A stretch of DNA of 51,389 nt from a bacterium (GTDB lineage: Bacteria > Patescibacteriota > Minisyncoccia > Phycocordibacterales > PALSA-1337). Each line of letters begins with the position of its first letter. The stretch's first letter is position 1. The notes beneath the pieces were generated by a model. The model was not told the origin of the DNA, made no database searches, and saw nothing but the letters and a program-made list of their open reading frames with translations. Positions 2,610-49,899 of this stretch are shown in pieces. A program made the position numbers and the translations under genes. The stretch covers positions 1 through 51,389 of the forward strand of contig JANXZK010000023.1 of NCBI GenBank assembly GCA_025355565.1, given 5' to 3'.

Positions 2610-3512
2610 TCACGGAACGAGGCGAAGATCCGCGCCGTCAGAAACAAAGTGGGTAGTCCCCTCTTTTTTTATATTCAATTTGTGATCTGTTGGTATGTAC
2701 TCAAATGGGTCAACCACAGGTTTTTTTGGTTTAGTCGATAGCGCCAAACTTGTCGTTTTTGAATAGACTAAATATCGTGGTCTCAGTCGACTGATCAACT
2801 TTTCTGAGATATTTGCCGGTAATGCACTGTGGGAAACGATCAATGCGCCAATCGTATGAACGGTTAGCCCAGTTGTCGATGCCAGATATTTCTGTACTTT
2901 TGCGCTAGCATTGCCCAATAACATCACAGAAGTTTCTCCATACGAAATATTCAGTAACAATTCTGGTGGGCTCGCCTTGGAATATCTGAAAATCTTGTCG
3001 CGAGCTGGAAATATCACTGAAGCATTAACCTTTGGATCGAGATCGATCGTGTCACCTTCACCAACTTCATCCATCCTGAGACCAGCAGCTTTGACTCGTT
3101 CGAGAAAAGTATCATAGATCTCATCTGTTGAACTGGATAGACCTAACGATAGTACAGAAATCCTCGGAACATAGACTCTTTCGACGTCGTACCGCTCTAG
3201 CACATCGATCAGACCGGCAACATTCTTTCCTTCCGTATTCGTCGCGATGAGCGCGTCAATTCTCCTAGTATAGAACGGAAGAATACGTGTTACCTCTCGT
3301 ACTACATCTCTGTTCGCTCCACCGTCGACGATAATCCTCCGATCTTCTGGTGTTCGGATAAAGATCGACCTGCCACTATCGAGCGCGAATACATAGATTT
3401 CAAGCACCCTTTGACGATGTTCCTGTCTCCAAACATAACTACCGACCATAGCAACTACGGCTCCTATTAAAACCAAAGTAACAACTAATTTTGAACGTAT
3501 TTTGATCCTCAT
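2610..3512 (-). CDS. Membrane-anchored ComEC-type MBL-fold protein with degenerate metal site
   Basis: A 300-aa protein: one N-terminal membrane helix (about residues 8-28), then a domain resembling the C-terminal beta-lactamase-like domain of the DNA-uptake protein ComEC. IRTPEDRRIIVDGG and IDALIATNTEGKNVAGLIDV correspond to the ComEC pattern ...DGG...THxDxDHxxGL. The HxDxDH metal motif is replaced by NTEGKN, so nuclease activity is doubtful. The ComEC transmembrane competence domain is absent. The gene is last in the pilus operon and its start overlaps the previous stop by 4 nt (ATGA). Family assignment is by pattern; a DNA-uptake role is inferred from context. Confidence 0.65.
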   Translation of the reverse strand: MRIKIRSKLVVTLVLIGAVVAMVGSYVWRQEHRQRVLEIYVFALDSGRSIFIRTPEDRRIIVDGGANRDVVREVTRILPFYTRRIDALIATNTEGKNVAGLIDVLERYDVERVYVPRISVLSLGLSSSTDEIYDTFLERVKAAGLRMDEVGEGDTIDLDPKVNASVIFPARDKIFRYSKASPPELLLNISYGETSVMLLGNASAKVQKYLASTTGLTVHTIGALIVSHSALPANISEKLISRLRPRYLVYSKTTSLALSTKPKKPVVDPFEYIPTDHKLNIKKEGTTHFVSDGADLRLVP

Positions 3513-3868
3513 ATATTCACATGACTGATCTGCTTTATATGAGACAACTCCGATATCGCGTCGACAGAGTGATTGCCATTGAAGTCGTTCATGATATTTA
3601 CCGAGCAGCCAAATTCGCTAAGTGTGTACAGACCTGACATATGATAGTCGCGTGCGATCATCAATCTAATAGTATCGAGACATGCCGCGAGATTCTGACT
3701 AGTCTGGATACGAATCTCTCTGCGATCTACCATGTCAGCATACATGACAGACGAAGCCAGTGTAGAAATACTAAACGCTAGAACACCAGTCGCCAATATT
3801 ACCGTCGATACGAGTGCGGTAAAACCTCGATTCTGACCGCAATTTACTTTACTTTTTTTGTGCATCAT
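3509..3868 (-). CDS. Small type IV pilin-like/PilX-like protein
   Basis: A 119-aa protein with a prepilin-type N-terminus: a basic leader (KKSKVNCGQNR), then G-FTALVSTVILATGVLAFSI, a hydrophobic helix preceded by the Gly where a prepilin peptidase would cut. The +5 residue is not Glu, as in PilX-like minor pilins. The rest is a short soluble domain with three cysteines. The start at 3868 (or 3865) lies inside the end of the preceding mini-pilin gene, and the stop overlaps the next start by 4 nt. A longer reading to 3931 would add 21 residues and overlap the mini-pilin further, so it is less likely. Confidence 0.65.
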   Translation of the reverse strand: MMHKKSKVNCGQNRGFTALVSTVILATGVLAFSISTLASSVMYADMVDRREIRIQTSQNLAACLDTIRLMIARDYHMSGLYTLSEFGCSVNIMNDFNGNHSVDAISELSHIKQISHVNI

Positions 3869-4016
3869 CGATTTCATGAGAAAGATCGATATTCTGGTAA
3901 TTTGTTTCAACGGCATACTGGATAAAACCAAAGAGAAACAAGGATAGGAGTGCGGCGTAAACGATAGTTTCTATCAAAGTCAAACCACTGCAGAAATATT
4001 CCCTATGATTATTCAT
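3849..4016 (-). CDS. 55-aa mini-pilin (type IV pilin-like)
   Basis: A short gene: a 12-residue leader ending CSG, then LTLIETIVYAALLSLFLFG, a textbook class III (prepilin) cleavage site with Glu at +5 and a hydrophobic helix, followed by only ~24 soluble residues. Its ATG (4016) overlaps the stop of the beta-propeller pilin gene as ATGA, and its end overlaps the next pilin-like gene by about 20 nt. This is translational coupling as elsewhere in the operon. It is essentially only an assembly helix, suggesting a minor pilin or pilus primer. The motif and overlaps are seen; the function is inferred. Confidence 0.75.
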   Translation of the reverse strand: MNNHREYFCSGLTLIETIVYAALLSLFLFGFIQYAVETNYQNIDLSHEIDDAQKK

Positions 4017-5452
4017 ATGTTTGTGTAATTACGAGTGATGGTGATGGCATATATCGCGGGGATAGTATGCGACAGAATATAGATTCTATTTCCATAACAA
4101 GTCATCGCTTGTGGTAAGGTTGGTAGAGAAAATTGGAGAGACGAACTGGCGCTCATCGTATGATCATATATCTGGAACTCTCTCCCAGCCTGGCGAGTGA
4201 TGATGAACTCATGCAATCTGTCAGAGATGATCCCGTATACCCCTTGCGATATATCTGCTGACTTCACATCAGTATCAACAAACGGGCTCGATCTGGCAAA
4301 GGTGAACGCCTCTGCGTCACTAACAATGTTGTACCCACCGGAAGTACGACCAAAGTCCAATCTTCCCTCGAACAAAGATGAGGTTTTGCCTTCTTGTCTC
4401 TGCCAACCGCTAGGGCTAAACCCGGACAGAAAGAGTGGAGACGACGGATCTCGAACGTCGATCGAGCGCAACTGCAGTCGATCGGCCCCTGACACATAGG
4501 CCTTCCCTGCATGAACGAATATATCGCCAACCTTGCCGCCGATTTCGACACCGGACAGTTTGACGGGTGTAAATGGATCCCCGATATCTATCGCGAGAAA
4601 TTCCTCCCCAGCCCACTTCTCTGTTCCCAAAAAAACTATTCCATCATCATAGGCGATACTGCTCCCGAGAGCTGGCGTTGCTGTCGCATATGGCAAAAGT
4701 AACCGGTATCGACTGAGTAATGAGAGGTTATGTGATGGATCTTGTTTCAGGACATGCAATTGACCGACAGTGGATGGTACCGCTGCGTAGATAAAACTGC
4801 CCGCCATGGCGAAATTGTCGATTCCCGGCCCAGTATTCAATGACGAAACCATTTTCACATTTTCTTTATCACCCAACTTGAATATATAGATATCTGGCAG
4901 AGCGGCGGCATTAGAATCAGTTGACACATATGCTATATCACCTCTCACTTCCAGATCGGTCATCGGCGTTGTTGGGGCCAATGGCAGATCATATGTTCGG
5001 ACATTTACATTCAGACTATATGTCGAAGTACTCTCATTCCGATTCCTCAGCCATTCATATGAACCTATTACGCTGTCATCACTAAAATCAACAGAACATA
5101 GAGCATGTTGATCCACAGAATCAATGTTACCGCCGGATAAGACGCGTATCGATGTGAACATGATCGACGATGACGAGTATGTTTCTTCCTCCCTGTCATT
5201 GCCATATGGTTTCACTGAAAATCCGTGAAACGCATCATGGCTCGTAAGTGCCCTCTGCTCGTATACATCTAGTTCCCCGCTCTTGTCTCTCGCCTTGTAG
5301 AATATGTCCCGCGAATAGCCAGTTATGCTCGTCAAGGATATGATAAACATGAACCCCAACGATAAAGCCAACAATATATCGATCAAGATGATACCGTGAA
5401 CTGTCTTCATGTCCGATCTAGGTTTATTGCTGTAATGTTTTTGAGAGATCAT
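4013..5452 (-). CDS. Pilin-like N-terminus fused to a beta-propeller (LVIVD-like) domain
   Basis: A 479-aa protein. The N-terminus has a prepilin-like segment, MKTVHG then IILIDILLALSLGFMFI (Asp instead of Glu at +5). From about residue 150 the sequence contains repeated units such as GDIAYVSTDS, GSFIYAAVPS, DDGIVFLGTE and GKAYVSGADRLQLRSIDVRD, which resemble LVIVD-type beta-propeller blades. This suggests a pilus-associated, surface-exposed binding protein, perhaps a tip adhesin. The start at 5452 overlaps pilC by 29 nt; an internal ATG at 5410, 14 nt after the pilC stop, gives a shorter and more typical leader. The stop overlaps the mini-pilin start by 4 nt. Confidence 0.65.
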   Translation of the reverse strand: MISQKHYSNKPRSDMKTVHGIILIDILLALSLGFMFIISLTSITGYSRDIFYKARDKSGELDVYEQRALTSHDAFHGFSVKPYGNDREEETYSSSSIMFTSIRVLSGGNIDSVDQHALCSVDFSDDSVIGSYEWLRNRNESTSTYSLNVNVRTYDLPLAPTTPMTDLEVRGDIAYVSTDSNAAALPDIYIFKLGDKENVKMVSSLNTGPGIDNFAMAGSFIYAAVPSTVGQLHVLKQDPSHNLSLLSRYRLLLPYATATPALGSSIAYDDGIVFLGTEKWAGEEFLAIDIGDPFTPVKLSGVEIGGKVGDIFVHAGKAYVSGADRLQLRSIDVRDPSSPLFLSGFSPSGWQRQEGKTSSLFEGRLDFGRTSGGYNIVSDAEAFTFARSSPFVDTDVKSADISQGVYGIISDRLHEFIITRQAGREFQIYDHTMSASSSLQFSLPTLPQAMTCYGNRIYILSHTIPAIYAITITRNYTNI

Positions 5453-6512
5453 ATATAGGCATGAGGATAGATAGGGCTATGGCCCCGACAAATACTCCCA
5501 TGACGATCATCATGAGCGGTTCGATGAGTGAGGTCATACGTTTTAGAGTGAGCTCTATATCGCGGTCTAGAATATCCGCTGCACGCAACAGAGACTTACC
5601 CAGAGTCCCAGACAGTTCACCTGCAGCAGCGAGAGCGACGATGTATCGAGGTGCCGGTACGCCAACAAAGACTTTGTCGAGAGGTAATCCTGCAGAAAGT
5701 CCTTGGATGCGCGGCTCTAGCAACTTATATATGGGGATAAAAGTTATGGTTTCCACTGAACTCCTGAACGCTCCCGATATCGGTAAACCGGAATCAACCA
5801 GAGTACCAAAGGATCTCAAAAATACTACGATGTTATAGCTGGTCAACATCCGCCCGATCAGTGGCAACTTTGAGAGCAAAGTCTGAGACACGAATCGTAA
5901 CCAGAGATTCCTCCTAAAACAAATTACTGTTGCGATCACAACCAATACTAGGACGATGCCACCGTACGCACCATATTTACTGATCACATTCGAACAATAG
6001 ATCGTCACTCGGCTCAAGAGGGGCAGTTTCGTGTGTAAGCCCTGCAGCATTGGCACGATCTGCGGCATGACACCACGGATCAGTCCAACAACAAAAATAA
6101 CGCAAAACCCGCCGATCACACAGGGATAGACCATAGACGATACGCATTTTTTGATCAGTTCATCTTGCTTCTCGATACTGTTTCGAGTCAGCCTTATAGC
6201 TGCTGCGAGATCACCGATAGTCTCCCCTTGAGAGATGACCCCCGAGAGTGTTTGAGACAATCCTAGATATTTTACCAGTCCAGATGACAGCGTCGACCCT
6301 GATTCGATATGCTGTTTCAAAGAATATAGTGCGTCGCCGTGTGCGGCCGTAACACCCTCCTCTGACAGATGTAGTGCCTTATCTATCGTTAGTCCCGATG
6401 CGAGATACAGTTCCAATCGTTCTAGAAACACGATCAGATCTCGTCGACTCCACTTTTTGAACCTAGCGCCCCGACGACTCTTCGTGGATATTTTTACTGA
6501 CTTTTCTATCAT
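5424..6512 (-). CDS. Type IV pilus/type II secretion inner-membrane platform protein (PilC/GspF family)
   Basis: A 362-aa protein with two GspF domains and the typical hydrophobic helices, including FCVIFVVGLIRGVMPQIVP and the C-terminal LIEPLMMIVMGVFVGAIALS. It would form the membrane platform that works with the ATPase encoded just upstream. The ATG at 6512 overlaps the ATPase stop as ATGA; the longer reading frame to 6557 is unnecessary. It is slightly shorter than the second copy at 37575-38798 and clearly diverged from it, pointing to a separate machine. Confidence 0.9.
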   Translation of the reverse strand: MIEKSVKISTKSRRGARFKKWSRRDLIVFLERLELYLASGLTIDKALHLSEEGVTAAHGDALYSLKQHIESGSTLSSGLVKYLGLSQTLSGVISQGETIGDLAAAIRLTRNSIEKQDELIKKCVSSMVYPCVIGGFCVIFVVGLIRGVMPQIVPMLQGLHTKLPLLSRVTIYCSNVISKYGAYGGIVLVLVVIATVICFRRNLWLRFVSQTLLSKLPLIGRMLTSYNIVVFLRSFGTLVDSGLPISGAFRSSVETITFIPIYKLLEPRIQGLSAGLPLDKVFVGVPAPRYIVALAAAGELSGTLGKSLLRAADILDRDIELTLKRMTSLIEPLMMIVMGVFVGAIALSILMPIYDLSKTLQQ

Positions 6513-7666
6513 ATATTTAATACCCTGAACACTTCGCTTCTGGTAGTGATACCCCATTCAACCTTTTCCATCCCATCCTCTGCGATCGGGCAAAATCTAT
6601 TGACTTTGGCATTTTCATACAGCACCGACGTCGAAGCTCTATTCGAGATGAGCTCTCGCATTTCCGCATCTATCTCGCACACTTCCGCGATAACTGACCG
6701 ACCAACATATCCCGAATTCCTGCATAGATCACAGCCCTCAGAAAAGCATCCATGACACATCGTCCGAACGAGTCTCTGAGCGATGATGAGCCGGAGAGTC
6801 GAGGCCAAGAGGTAATTGTCCACGCCCATGTCGACTAACCTCGGTATCGCCTCGATAGCGGAGTTTGTATGCAATGTCGACAATACCAAATGACCAGTCA
6901 AGGCCGTATGGACCGCGACTTTGGCTGTCTCGTTATCGCGGATCTCACCAACCATGATCACATCTGGATCTTGTCTCAATGCCGACCGGAGACCGTTACT
7001 AAAAGTCACACCGTGATTGTGCCGAATATGAACCTGACGAACTCCGGGTATCTCATATTCGACTGGATCTTCCAGTGTAACTATCGATAAAGGCTCACGG
7101 ACTTTGAGCGATAGACATGTATGCAGTGTCGTCGTCTTCCCAGATCCTGTGGGACCGGAGACTAGGATGAGGCCGTTCGTATTTTTCATCGCTTTGTCGA
7201 TCGATCTTACATGGTCTGGCGTGAAACCGAGATTGGCAAATGACAGATCTCTGGAAGTTTGAGACGGTAACAAACGTATAACGGCGTTTTCACCGTGATA
7301 TGTCGGCATAAATGAAATACGGATATTGTATTCATCGCTCCGCAATTCTGTTCTCCACCTCCCATCCTGTGGTACGGCATGAACATCCGTCCTCGAACCA
7401 GAGAGGATCTTCAAACGTGCTATGACTTCATCATGAAGCCTTTTCGGTATGATACCGACTTCACCGATTCTCCCATCCACACGAAACCTGACGATCGAAT
7501 CTTCTCTCCTAGGGTCACAATGCACATCAGACGCTCTCATATACGCCGCGTAAGACAAGATCTCATCGATCGCTTCGACAGCCGTCTTTGGATCCATTGG
7601 AAACTCCTCAGGTAATCCATCCGAACTCACTTCAATATTGATTTTTTCCTCTGTTGTCTCGACCAT
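6509..7666 (-). CDS. Secretion ATPase of the PilB/PilT/GspE family, short form with tetracysteine motif
   Basis: A 385-aa hexameric-type ATPase. Visible are Walker A (GPTGSGKTT), the Asp box (LEDPVEYE), Walker B (DPDVIMVGEIRD) and the His box (GHLVLSTLHTN). The C-terminus carries a CxxC...CxxC element (CHGC, CDLC) typical of GspE/PilB assembly ATPases. The N-terminal MshEN domain is missing, giving a PilT-like length. The ATG at 7666 is chosen over the GTG at 7672 because it has AGGATG at the same distance as the comM start, in an upstream region shared with comM. First gene of the pilus operon; it would power pilin assembly or retraction. Confidence 0.9.
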   Translation of the reverse strand: MVETTEEKINIEVSSDGLPEEFPMDPKTAVEAIDEILSYAAYMRASDVHCDPRREDSIVRFRVDGRIGEVGIIPKRLHDEVIARLKILSGSRTDVHAVPQDGRWRTELRSDEYNIRISFMPTYHGENAVIRLLPSQTSRDLSFANLGFTPDHVRSIDKAMKNTNGLILVSGPTGSGKTTTLHTCLSLKVREPLSIVTLEDPVEYEIPGVRQVHIRHNHGVTFSNGLRSALRQDPDVIMVGEIRDNETAKVAVHTALTGHLVLSTLHTNSAIEAIPRLVDMGVDNYLLASTLRLIIAQRLVRTMCHGCFSEGCDLCRNSGYVGRSVIAEVCEIDAEMRELISNRASTSVLYENAKVNRFCPIAEDGMEKVEWGITTRSEVFRVLNI

Positions 7667-7763
7667 GCGCACATCCTATCAAACAACAGATAAAATCCAG
7701 ATGAATTTTTGTTCAAAAAGCGATAAAGAAAAGATAAAATTTCGATAAAGAAAAGATAAAATC
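7667..7763 (-). promoter_or_regulatory. Promoter/operator shared with comM
   Basis: On the minus strand it has two tandem copies, 22 bp apart, of ATTTTATCTTTTCTTTATC (7762-7744 and 7740-7722). Then come TTGAAC (7716-7711), another GATTTTATC (7697-7689), and GATAGGATG plus five bases before the ATG. From 7743 down to the start codon it aligns without gaps to the comM upstream region. TTGAAC is a plausible -35 box. The -10 position (TTATCT) is poor, which suggests an activator or alternative factor. Confidence 0.75.
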
Positions 7764-48216: not shown

Positions 48217-48292
48217 CCATAGAAATGTGTGAATGTGCGGCTCTATGTCTCGCTTTTTTCATCGGTGTAGATTTTAACATTTTTTTATCAAG

Positions 48293-48366
48293 ATTTTATC
48301 TTTTCTTTATCATTCCTTGAACAAAATTTCATCAGGATTTTATCGGCCAACTGATAGGATGCATAC
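48293..48366 (+). promoter_or_regulatory. comM promoter/operator shared with the first pilus operon
   Basis: ATTTTATCTTTTCTTTATC (48293-48311), TTGAAC (48317-48322), GATTTTATC (48336-48344), then GATAGGATG plus five bases before the GTG start. Spacing is identical to the region upstream of the pilus ATPase gene (7743-7667). About 60 of 77 positions match, including the start codon position. Confidence 0.75.
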
Positions 48367-49899
48367 GTGAGCATAGCAAAGACATATACGGCACAACTCA
48401 TCGGCCTCAAAACAGAGATGATCACTGTGGAAGTAGACATTTCCAATGGTCTGCACGCATTTTCTATCGTAGGATTGGGTGATAGGGCTATAGAAGAAGC
48501 CAAAGATCGCGTTGCCGCGGCAATAAAGAACAGTGGCTACATCTCACCTAAACAAAAGAATCAAAAGGTTGTAGTGTCGCTCGCTCCAGCAGACATGCGC
48601 AAAGAAGGGCCATCTTTCGACTTGGCGATCGCCCTCACATACCTAAAAGCAGTGGGTGAGATCAGTTTTGATCATTCGAACAAGATATTCCTAGGCGAGC
48701 TTTCACTGGAAGGAAACGTCAGAAAGATATATGGCGTCCTGCCGATCCTGTGTCAATTAGAGACATACGATATAACGGAGGCTTTCGTGCCGATCGAGAA
48801 TGCCCATGAGGCTTCTTTGGCGAGAAACATCACCATCTTTGCCGTAAGTTCTCTTAGAGAGATTATCGCTCACTTAGACAGGACTATGCCGATGCGCCCA
48901 ATCAACCGATCTTTTAGCAATAATATGCCGATGCCGCGGAAGAACAACGTGGAGATAAGTACTATACGAGGCAATGAGACGGGAAAGAGGGGCCTGGAGA
49001 TAGCAGCAGCTGGGGCACATAACTTGATCATGTACGGCCCACCAGGAACAGGGAAAACTATGCTGGCGCAAAGCCTTTCTTCTATACTACCACCGCTAAC
49101 ATACGAGCAGTCCGTCGAGGTAACAGGGATACATTCTGCAGCCAGAGCACTGAGTGGTGGCTTGATCCTATATCCACCCTTTCGCTCTCCACATCACACT
49201 GCTTCATACCCAGCGATCGTTGGGGGCGGAAATTTTCCAAAACCAGGAGAGATCACCTTGGCCCACCGTGGGGTGTTGTTCATGGACGAATTTCCAGAAT
49301 TTGATAGATCAGTCATCGAAGCACTGCGCCAACCACTCGAAGATCGAGTGATCACAATATCACGAGCCAAAGGATCAGTGACCTTCCCGGCACAATGTAT
49401 CCTCCTGGCATCGATGAATCCATGTCCTTGTGGGAAGGGTAGAGAAAATGGCTGCAACTGTCCACACACTGTCCTAGAGGCATACAAGCGCAAAGTATCT
49501 GGCCCGATCATGGACCGACTCGATATGTGGGTGAATGTAAACAGGATCGACTACGAAAAATTGGCGGACAAAACATCCTCGGGAGAAAGATCTGAGATAA
49601 TACTCGAGCGAGTCCTTCGTGCGAGAGAGATACAATCCGCCAGATTTAGTCGGCACAAGATCGACAAATCGTTCAATGGTGAGATGAGTGCTGGTGATAT
49701 AGAAAAGATAGTTGTCATGAGCGATAGTGCGCGATCTTTGCTAGTGTCATCATCTAAAAAGATGGAGCTGTCCGGTCGAACATTCCACAAGATCATCAAA
49801 GTCGCCCAGACAATAGCTGACTTGGCACAAAAAAAGTCGATCGACGAGCCCGACATTTTAGAAGCACTGCGATACAGGAGGAAGACGGAGGGTGGGTAA
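48367..49899 (+). CDS. comM: ComM/YifB-family Mg-chelatase-like AAA+ helicase
   Basis: A 510-aa protein. An N-terminal Lon-protease-like domain (GLHAFSIVGLGDRAIEEAKD; RKEGPSFDLAIAL) is followed by the AAA+ domain (YGPPGTGKTMLA; GVLFMDEFPEF). Then come a Cys-containing insert (NPCPCGKGRENGCNC) and the C-terminal Mg-chelatase-like domain. ComM drives branch migration during natural transformation. The GTG start at 48367 is supported by AGGATG at the same spacing as before the pilus ATPase start. Confidence 0.93.
   Translation: MSIAKTYTAQLIGLKTEMITVEVDISNGLHAFSIVGLGDRAIEEAKDRVAAAIKNSGYISPKQKNQKVVVSLAPADMRKEGPSFDLAIALTYLKAVGEISFDHSNKIFLGELSLEGNVRKIYGVLPILCQLETYDITEAFVPIENAHEASLARNITIFAVSSLREIIAHLDRTMPMRPINRSFSNNMPMPRKNNVEISTIRGNETGKRGLEIAAAGAHNLIMYGPPGTGKTMLAQSLSSILPPLTYEQSVEVTGIHSAARALSGGLILYPPFRSPHHTASYPAIVGGGNFPKPGEITLAHRGVLFMDEFPEFDRSVIEALRQPLEDRVITISRAKGSVTFPAQCILLASMNPCPCGKGRENGCNCPHTVLEAYKRKVSGPIMDRLDMWVNVNRIDYEKLADKTSSGERSEIILERVLRAREIQSARFSRHKIDKSFNGEMSAGDIEKIVVMSDSARSLLVSSSKKMELSGRTFHKIIKVAQTIADLAQKKSIDEPDILEALRYRRKTEGG

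Follow-up and report, generated by a model that had tools for sequence, protein, structure and literature searches.

A phased heptad array in front of type IV pilus and competence genes in a Patescibacteria genus, and a PhoB-type response regulator as its probable reader

The 77 bp in front of a pilus ATPase gene and the 77 bp in front of comM, both in the window analyzed here (the whole stretch of DNA, 51,389 nucleotides), are copies of one element. We consider it very probable that this element is the operator-promoter of a competence and type IV pilus regulon controlled, and most likely activated, by a response regulator (RR) of the OmpR/PhoB type. The host belongs to the Patescibacteria, in a group of bacteria that are uncultivated and ultrasmall. 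What can be read directly from the genomes are the arrays that make up the element, their phase, the closed set of sites, their conservation in relatives and the co-variation of operator and recognition helix. The 11-bp periodicity, the RR, the leaderless starts and the RNA described below were absent from the preliminary description of this DNA and are added here.

One element upstream of the pilus operon and comM

The pilus copy (7667-7743, minus strand) and the comM copy (48290-48366, plus strand) match without a gap and each abuts its start codon, ATG 7666 and GTG 48367, respectively. When the pilus 77-mer was compared with all other 77-mers of the genome, the top identities were 60/77, 59, 59, 55, 54 and 53, and the best non-self match, 60/77, fits the comM copy in the correct register. 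The preliminary description had counted about 60 gap-free matching positions. This count holds, but the coordinates given for the comM copy (48293-48369) lay 3 bp too far and included the start codon; identity in that register is only 24/77. Within the window, TTTTATCTTTTCTTTATC occurs five times with up to 3 mismatches (0.12 expected) and TTGAACAAAANTTCATCNGGATTTTATC twice (0.00 expected).

The shared element is an array of the heptad TTTTATC with a period of 11 bp (7 conserved and 4 variable bases), with one unit per helical turn. The extra tandem repeat previously noticed 22 bp upstream in the pilus copy is real and is one piece of this longer, 11-bp-phased array. The pilus heptads start at 7761, 7750, 7739, 7728, 7717, 7706 and 7695 and read, in order, TTTTATC, CTTTATC, TTTTATC, CTTTATC, TTTGAAC, ATTCATC and TTTTATC, with the spacers tttt, gaaa, tttt, gctt, aaaa and tgga. 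Past the last heptad come 10 bases ending in TGA, then TAGGAT, 6 bases and the ATG. The -10 element, formerly called poor, is in fact an extended -10, TGATAGGAT. The comM promoter, whose heptad starts span 48272 to 48338, has the same layout of array, extended -10 and start codon exactly 6 bases on (Table 1).

The 300-aa protein of the pilus operon had been taken as ComEC-like (metallo-beta-lactamase), which is not confirmed by Pfam. Its orthologues lie directly downstream of comEC, behind an array of their own, in four relatives (G001, G002, G016 and G015).

Table 1. Features of the window, with positions counted from its first base.
Feature	Position	Strand	Support and remarks
PilB/PilT-type ATPase	6509..7666	-	PF00437, E 2.7e-108; predicted leaderless from ATG 7666
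PilC-type pilus membrane protein	5424..6557	-	PF00482, E 9.8e-35
479-aa pilus-operon protein	4013..5452	-	no Pfam match; adjoins pilC in relatives too
140-aa pilus-operon protein	3509..3931	-	no Pfam match
300-aa protein (comEC-associated gene)	2610..3512	-	no Pfam match
ComM, Mg-chelatase-like AAA+ protein	48367..49899	+	PF01078, E 2.1e-82; predicted leaderless from GTG 48367
Pilus operator array, 7 heptads	7689..7761	-	weight-matrix score 68.4 (at most 18.5 in shuffles)
Pilus extended -10, TGATAGGAT	7673..7681	-	hexamer TAGGAT 7678-7673; 10 nt past last heptad
comM operator array, 7 heptads every 11 bp, first degenerate	48272..48344	+	weight-matrix score 68.1
comM extended -10, TGATAGGAT	48352..48360	+	hexamer 48355-48360; 10 nt past last heptad

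A closed set of ten sites

The host genome has 831,986 bp in 27 contigs, two small ones of which read N, and is 99.7% complete. Scanned with a weight matrix of 56 bp that was trained on eight sites, it gave exactly ten sites, scoring 55.1-68.4; the eleventh scored 17.3, and five shuffled genomes gave no score above 18.5. Of these ten sites, C3:10566 and C3:53634 were outside the training set. Single bases of the heptad, such as its last C and the A at position 5, are conserved. The arrays end 9-10 nt before the -10, which is of the extended type (TGnTAnnnT) at 8 of the 10 sites, and the -35 box is missing, with heptads in its place.

Behind the sites lie the pilB-pilC operon, comM, comEC, a type IV pilin gene, a PemK-like gene followed by dprA, rpsF-ssb, the genes for a 973-aa secreted LCAT-like protein and a 71-aa protein, and a 59-aa ORF ahead of tuf; the remaining site is directly 3' of the RR gene, with a putative RNA behind it. 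Pfam supports ComEC (PF03772, 7e-47) and DprA (PF02481, 5e-57) and also identifies the pilin, SSB, PemK-like and LCAT-like products. A common promoter element at comEC, dprA, ssb, comM, pilB/C and the pilin gene is what would be expected of a competence regulon. The earlier idea that a single regulator would act through TTTTATC repeats on a DNA-uptake regulon is supported by these ten sites, and the element is not scattered in front of many unrelated genes. Sites had been anticipated at dprA, comEC, comF, recA and ssb: comEC, dprA and ssb do carry one, recA does not, and a simple motif search of the host genome identified no comF. With rpsF-rpsR, the tuf site and the LCAT-like protein, the set is not purely one of DNA-uptake genes. 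The tuf site (C19, L040:15643-15895) precedes a 59-aa ORF, apparently leaderless, which is followed by tuf and the S10 ribosomal operon; this site has no counterpart among the examined sites of relatives.

That the promoters would resemble each other by chance, or through a mobile repeat of no regulatory meaning, is almost inconceivable, and we found nothing in its favour. Expected matches are close to 0, the distance between element and start codon is constant to the nucleotide and arrays precede the same operons in relatives; chance similarity was rejected on the match statistics, the genome scan and these arrays.

Heptads that replace the -35 box near the -10 correspond to the activator-site layout of the OmpR/PhoB type, as known for PhoB. 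On the basis of this geometry, the RR is most likely an activator. One could also imagine that the same RR represses, the array blocking RNA polymerase until a signal removes the protein. Indeed, the array comes close to the -10, and such a role would be compatible with the geometry taken by itself. We nonetheless regard repression as unlikely: the missing -35 and a last heptad placed 9-10 nt ahead of a -10 that is mostly extended form the layout expected for an OmpR/PhoB activator, and a repressor would not need so poor a core promoter.

Conservation in relatives

Orthologues of the RR, with 51-71% identity, are present in nearly all congeners. About 20 related species, among them Candidatus Taylorbacteria L177, the closest named record, have an array on the 3' side of this gene. 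A sequence-only covariance model built from the ten sites detected sites in 15 of 23 other congeners, some of the remainder being incomplete or having diverged heptads. In five congeners without a model match, an array is present upstream of comEC, where lag 11 gives the strongest autocorrelation. G001, G002, G010, G015 and G016 carry arrays before the same operons, with diverged heptads and the 11-bp phase kept. The orthologues behind them, not every gene in every species, are pilB-pilC, comM, comEC, the comEC-associated 300-aa gene, the pilin gene, rpsF-ssb-rpsR, the PemK-like gene (with dprA in G010), the LCAT-like gene and the 71-aa gene. The comparison with relatives suggested in the preliminary description thus shows the element in front of the orthologues of pilB, comM and further members of the regulon. 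Behind arrays at L143 (G010) and L146 (G001), we also observed REP-associated-transposase-like genes (YNRGAHK motif).

A candidate regulator of the PhoB type

Because of the 7+4 direct-repeat layout, a protein of the OmpR/PhoB type was sought before its location was known. The operator is built from direct repeats of 7 bp at a constant spacing of 4 bp, and the 11-bp phase is kept across sites and species. The genome encodes only one full-length PhoB-type RR, at C3:10643-11341 (minus strand), outside the window, and an array begins about 43 bp past its stop codon. Both its domains, PF00072 (E 5.1e-26) and PF00486 (E 1.8e-22), are above the curated cut-off, and its closest PDB relative is 1kgs (E 4e-47). 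We infer that this RR is the protein that binds the array.

Its receiver domain displays EDD near the N-terminus, IILD-Y and TKPF. Since the acidic pocket, the Asp and the Lys are conserved, phosphorylation of the RR is likely. A cognate histidine kinase gene next door is usual but not strict, orphan RRs being common. No kinase gene lies beside this RR; three candidate HATPase kinases are encoded, all on other contigs, and one of them would be its partner.

In the mechanism that we propose, the RR would bind head-to-tail on one helix face, one protomer per 11-bp unit (7-bp motif plus 4-bp spacer), and the protomers would fill the array cooperatively. The last protomer, 9-10 nt from the -10, would replace the -35 contact, and the bound RR would most likely recruit RNA polymerase to an extended -10 promoter that is weak by itself. 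Under this control would come pilus assembly (the pilB-pilC operon and the pilin), DNA uptake (comEC and its companion) and the processing and recombination of single-stranded DNA (ssb, dprA, comM), together with proteins that are exported or at the surface and the RNA located 3' of the regulator gene.

On the other hand, another DNA-binding protein could read the array, the RR being then a mere neighbour or a member of the regulon. The array 3' of the RR gene drives the RNA, and adjacency alone is no proof. Such a different reader seems quite unlikely, given that 7+4 direct repeats are typical of OmpR/PhoB proteins, that no second full PhoB-type RR is encoded in the genome, and that the recognition helix of this RR changes where the operator changes.

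Operator and recognition helix change together

The heptad of G008 reads TGTTATC or TGTAATC. A pattern derived from it matches upstream of rpsF-ssb, comEC, the 71-aa gene, pilB-pilC, the LCAT-like gene, two PemK-like genes and the RR-adjacent RNA, against 0-1 matches for the reversed-pattern control, and it is found in 1 of 34 congeners, G008 alone. The recognition helix of the RR reads HMARL in G008 versus HIRNL in nearly all others. A weaker switch is seen in G012, with the helix HIAHL and units of the CTTAATC type.

The host RR shares 35% identity with PhoP over 226 aa. In the solved PhoP structure, Tyr220 hydrogen-bonds the base at motif position 2 (PMC4832192). The position that changes from N to R in G008 aligns with this Tyr220, and base 2 of the motif has changed from T to G. 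The plain reading is an Arg-Gua contact in G008. The case for it is strong but not final, because it rests on a single event (none of the 34 congeners has a second independent Arg/Gua switch) and because the register between the heptad and the PhoP motif is deduced from conservation, not from a structure.

G008 also bears on the possibility that phased T-rich tracts would act on RNA polymerase as curved DNA or an UP-element with no dedicated regulator. T-runs in 11-bp phase can bend DNA, and many heptads are TTTTATC. However, the G008 heptads TGTTATC and TGTAATC have no T-runs, while phase and operons are kept, and conservation extends to single bases such as the last C and the A at position 5. 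The curved-DNA reading, which we consider very unlikely, was rejected on the G008 heptads.

Leaderless and leader-bearing transcripts

As the array fixes the position of the -10, the distance to the start codon could be counted in each species. The start codon is exactly 6 nt past the -10 for pilB in 8/8 species, comM in 4/4 species, the PemK-like gene in 5/6 genes and the comEC-associated gene in 4/4. The same spacing is seen for comEC in 3/11 cases and for the pilin, rpsF-ssb, LCAT and 71-aa genes in 0/24. We thus predict leaderless mRNAs for the first four and leaders for the pilin, rpsF-ssb, LCAT and 71-aa class. An in-frame GTG at 7672, upstream of the pilB ATG 7666, would precede the expected transcript start. 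The leaders of the 71-aa, pilin, LCAT and comEC genes often open with a hairpin at the 5' terminus, different from one species to the next (L147, L149, L166, L167, L278 and others).

RNAs behind the arrays

No conserved ORF was found behind the RR-adjacent array. Instead, a 5' hairpin of the RNA, GTTATG-nGTCGa-CATAAC with variants, is present in 22 genomes, its loop being shifted in G002. Compensatory changes occur in 7 of its 8 pairs (22 cells), 0 of 500 shuffles being as good, and sliding the partner strand destroys the signal. Rfam gave no match for this RNA, the twelve RR loci searched yielding only tRNAs and chance-level matches. A small peptide was considered and rejected: several species have an interrupted ATG frame, whereas the stem is kept by paired changes. 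The G016 RNA, of about 135 nt, has a compact fold (z -3.8) and a strong terminal hairpin followed by T-rich sequence; no intrinsic terminator was found for the host-genome RNA. The simplest reading is a small RNA that would be under the control of the RR. Further 3' of the regulator-RNA unit lies a serine recombinase gene beside a tRNA-Arg (L024, C3, 8158-9846), so the host-genome sequence beyond the RNA may be inserted.

Some arrays of G001, G016 and G015 (L146, L153, L162, L170, L175) precede a noncoding tRNA-like RNA with an acceptor stem, a T-arm GGGTTCGACTCCC and a sub-threshold tmRNA match; an ordinary tmRNA is encoded elsewhere in the host genome. In 3 of 5 copies, 13-18 nt of its hairpin arm are complementary to a stretch about 100 nt downstream, which resembles the 5' end of another RNA, one that has a terminator and a sigma-70-like promoter of its own.

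Comparison with known systems

Direct repeats of 7 bp, strictly spaced by 4 bp, are the target of mycobacterial PhoP, which binds 3-4 units more tightly than 2 (PMC4832192); the PhoB box consists of two 11-bp repeats (PMC3978041). The candidate regulator resembles PhoP and E. coli PhoB in its two domains (PF00072 and PF00486) and in the 7-bp repeats, 4-bp spacer and head-to-tail units of its presumed operator. It differs from them in the heptad TTTTATC, in arrays that as a rule have several units (up to seven or eight), and in the competence and type IV pilus genes of a Patescibacteria genus in place of phosphate or virulence genes.

The nearest functional parallel can be drawn with streptococcal CiaRH, whose operator TTTAAG-N5-TTTAAG (11 bp) drives csRNAs and which touches competence and pilT (PMC8186281). 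Direct repeats of 11 bp and small RNAs are common to both, but the operator sequence here is TTTTATC, and CiaR restrains competence through csRNAs whereas the DNA-uptake genes themselves carry the operator here. There is no sign of orthology between the two systems.

Classical circuits such as pneumococcal ComE/ComX place comEC, ssb, dprA and pilus genes under a single switch, a feature that the present system would share. In contrast to ComE, the RR has PF00486 and no LytTR domain; it is of the PhoB type and appears to act directly. Unlike for ComX, the promoters have an ordinary -10 and no alternative-sigma box.

Among Patescibacteria, Southlakia epibionticum (Saccharibacteria) has type IV pili and comEC-dependent natural transformation, and the main text of that study does not mention a regulon, a response regulator or a histidine kinase (PMC10633639). 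It shares comEC uptake and pili with our host and belongs to a different lineage. In the openly accessible journal literature on competence regulation, response regulators and leaderless transcripts, we found no Patescibacteria competence regulon, which is weak evidence of novelty; this appears to be the first competence control circuit found for the group.

A 2024 perspective called the mechanisms of Patescibacteria cell-state differentiation completely unknown (PMC11665869). We tentatively suggest, as a possibility less probable than its alternatives taken together, that the system is a developmental switch, in which an orphan PhoB-type regulator acting through cooperative 11-bp arrays would turn on pili, DNA uptake and recombination in a single programme with surface proteins and a small RNA of its own, perhaps that of a free or swarmer cell state. 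Machinery mRNAs would be leaderless and abundant products would have leaders, while the small RNA with the GTCG-loop hairpin and, in some species, the tRNA-like RNA and antisense pair would add a post-transcriptional layer.

Patescibacteria account for much of bacterial diversity, and their gene regulation is very poorly known. A concrete regulator, operator and gene list are offered here, for which a single purified protein would suffice as an in vitro test. They would indicate when cells are transformable, which matters for genetic tractability, and the switch in G008 provides a natural experiment in which a whole regulon moves to a new operator.

Arrays outside the genus

A class-level search for TTHATC arrays found them plentiful only in the host genome and in G125, and weak in G228. 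A broad distribution was rejected on this result. The comEC upstream regions outside the genus are mostly array-free; those of G029, G031 and G038 are phased by eye only. In G125, which belongs to another family of the class, TTTTATC arrays (L310-L317) precede ComF-like, coiled-coil, LCAT-like and other genes, and possibly represent a related or convergent regulon.
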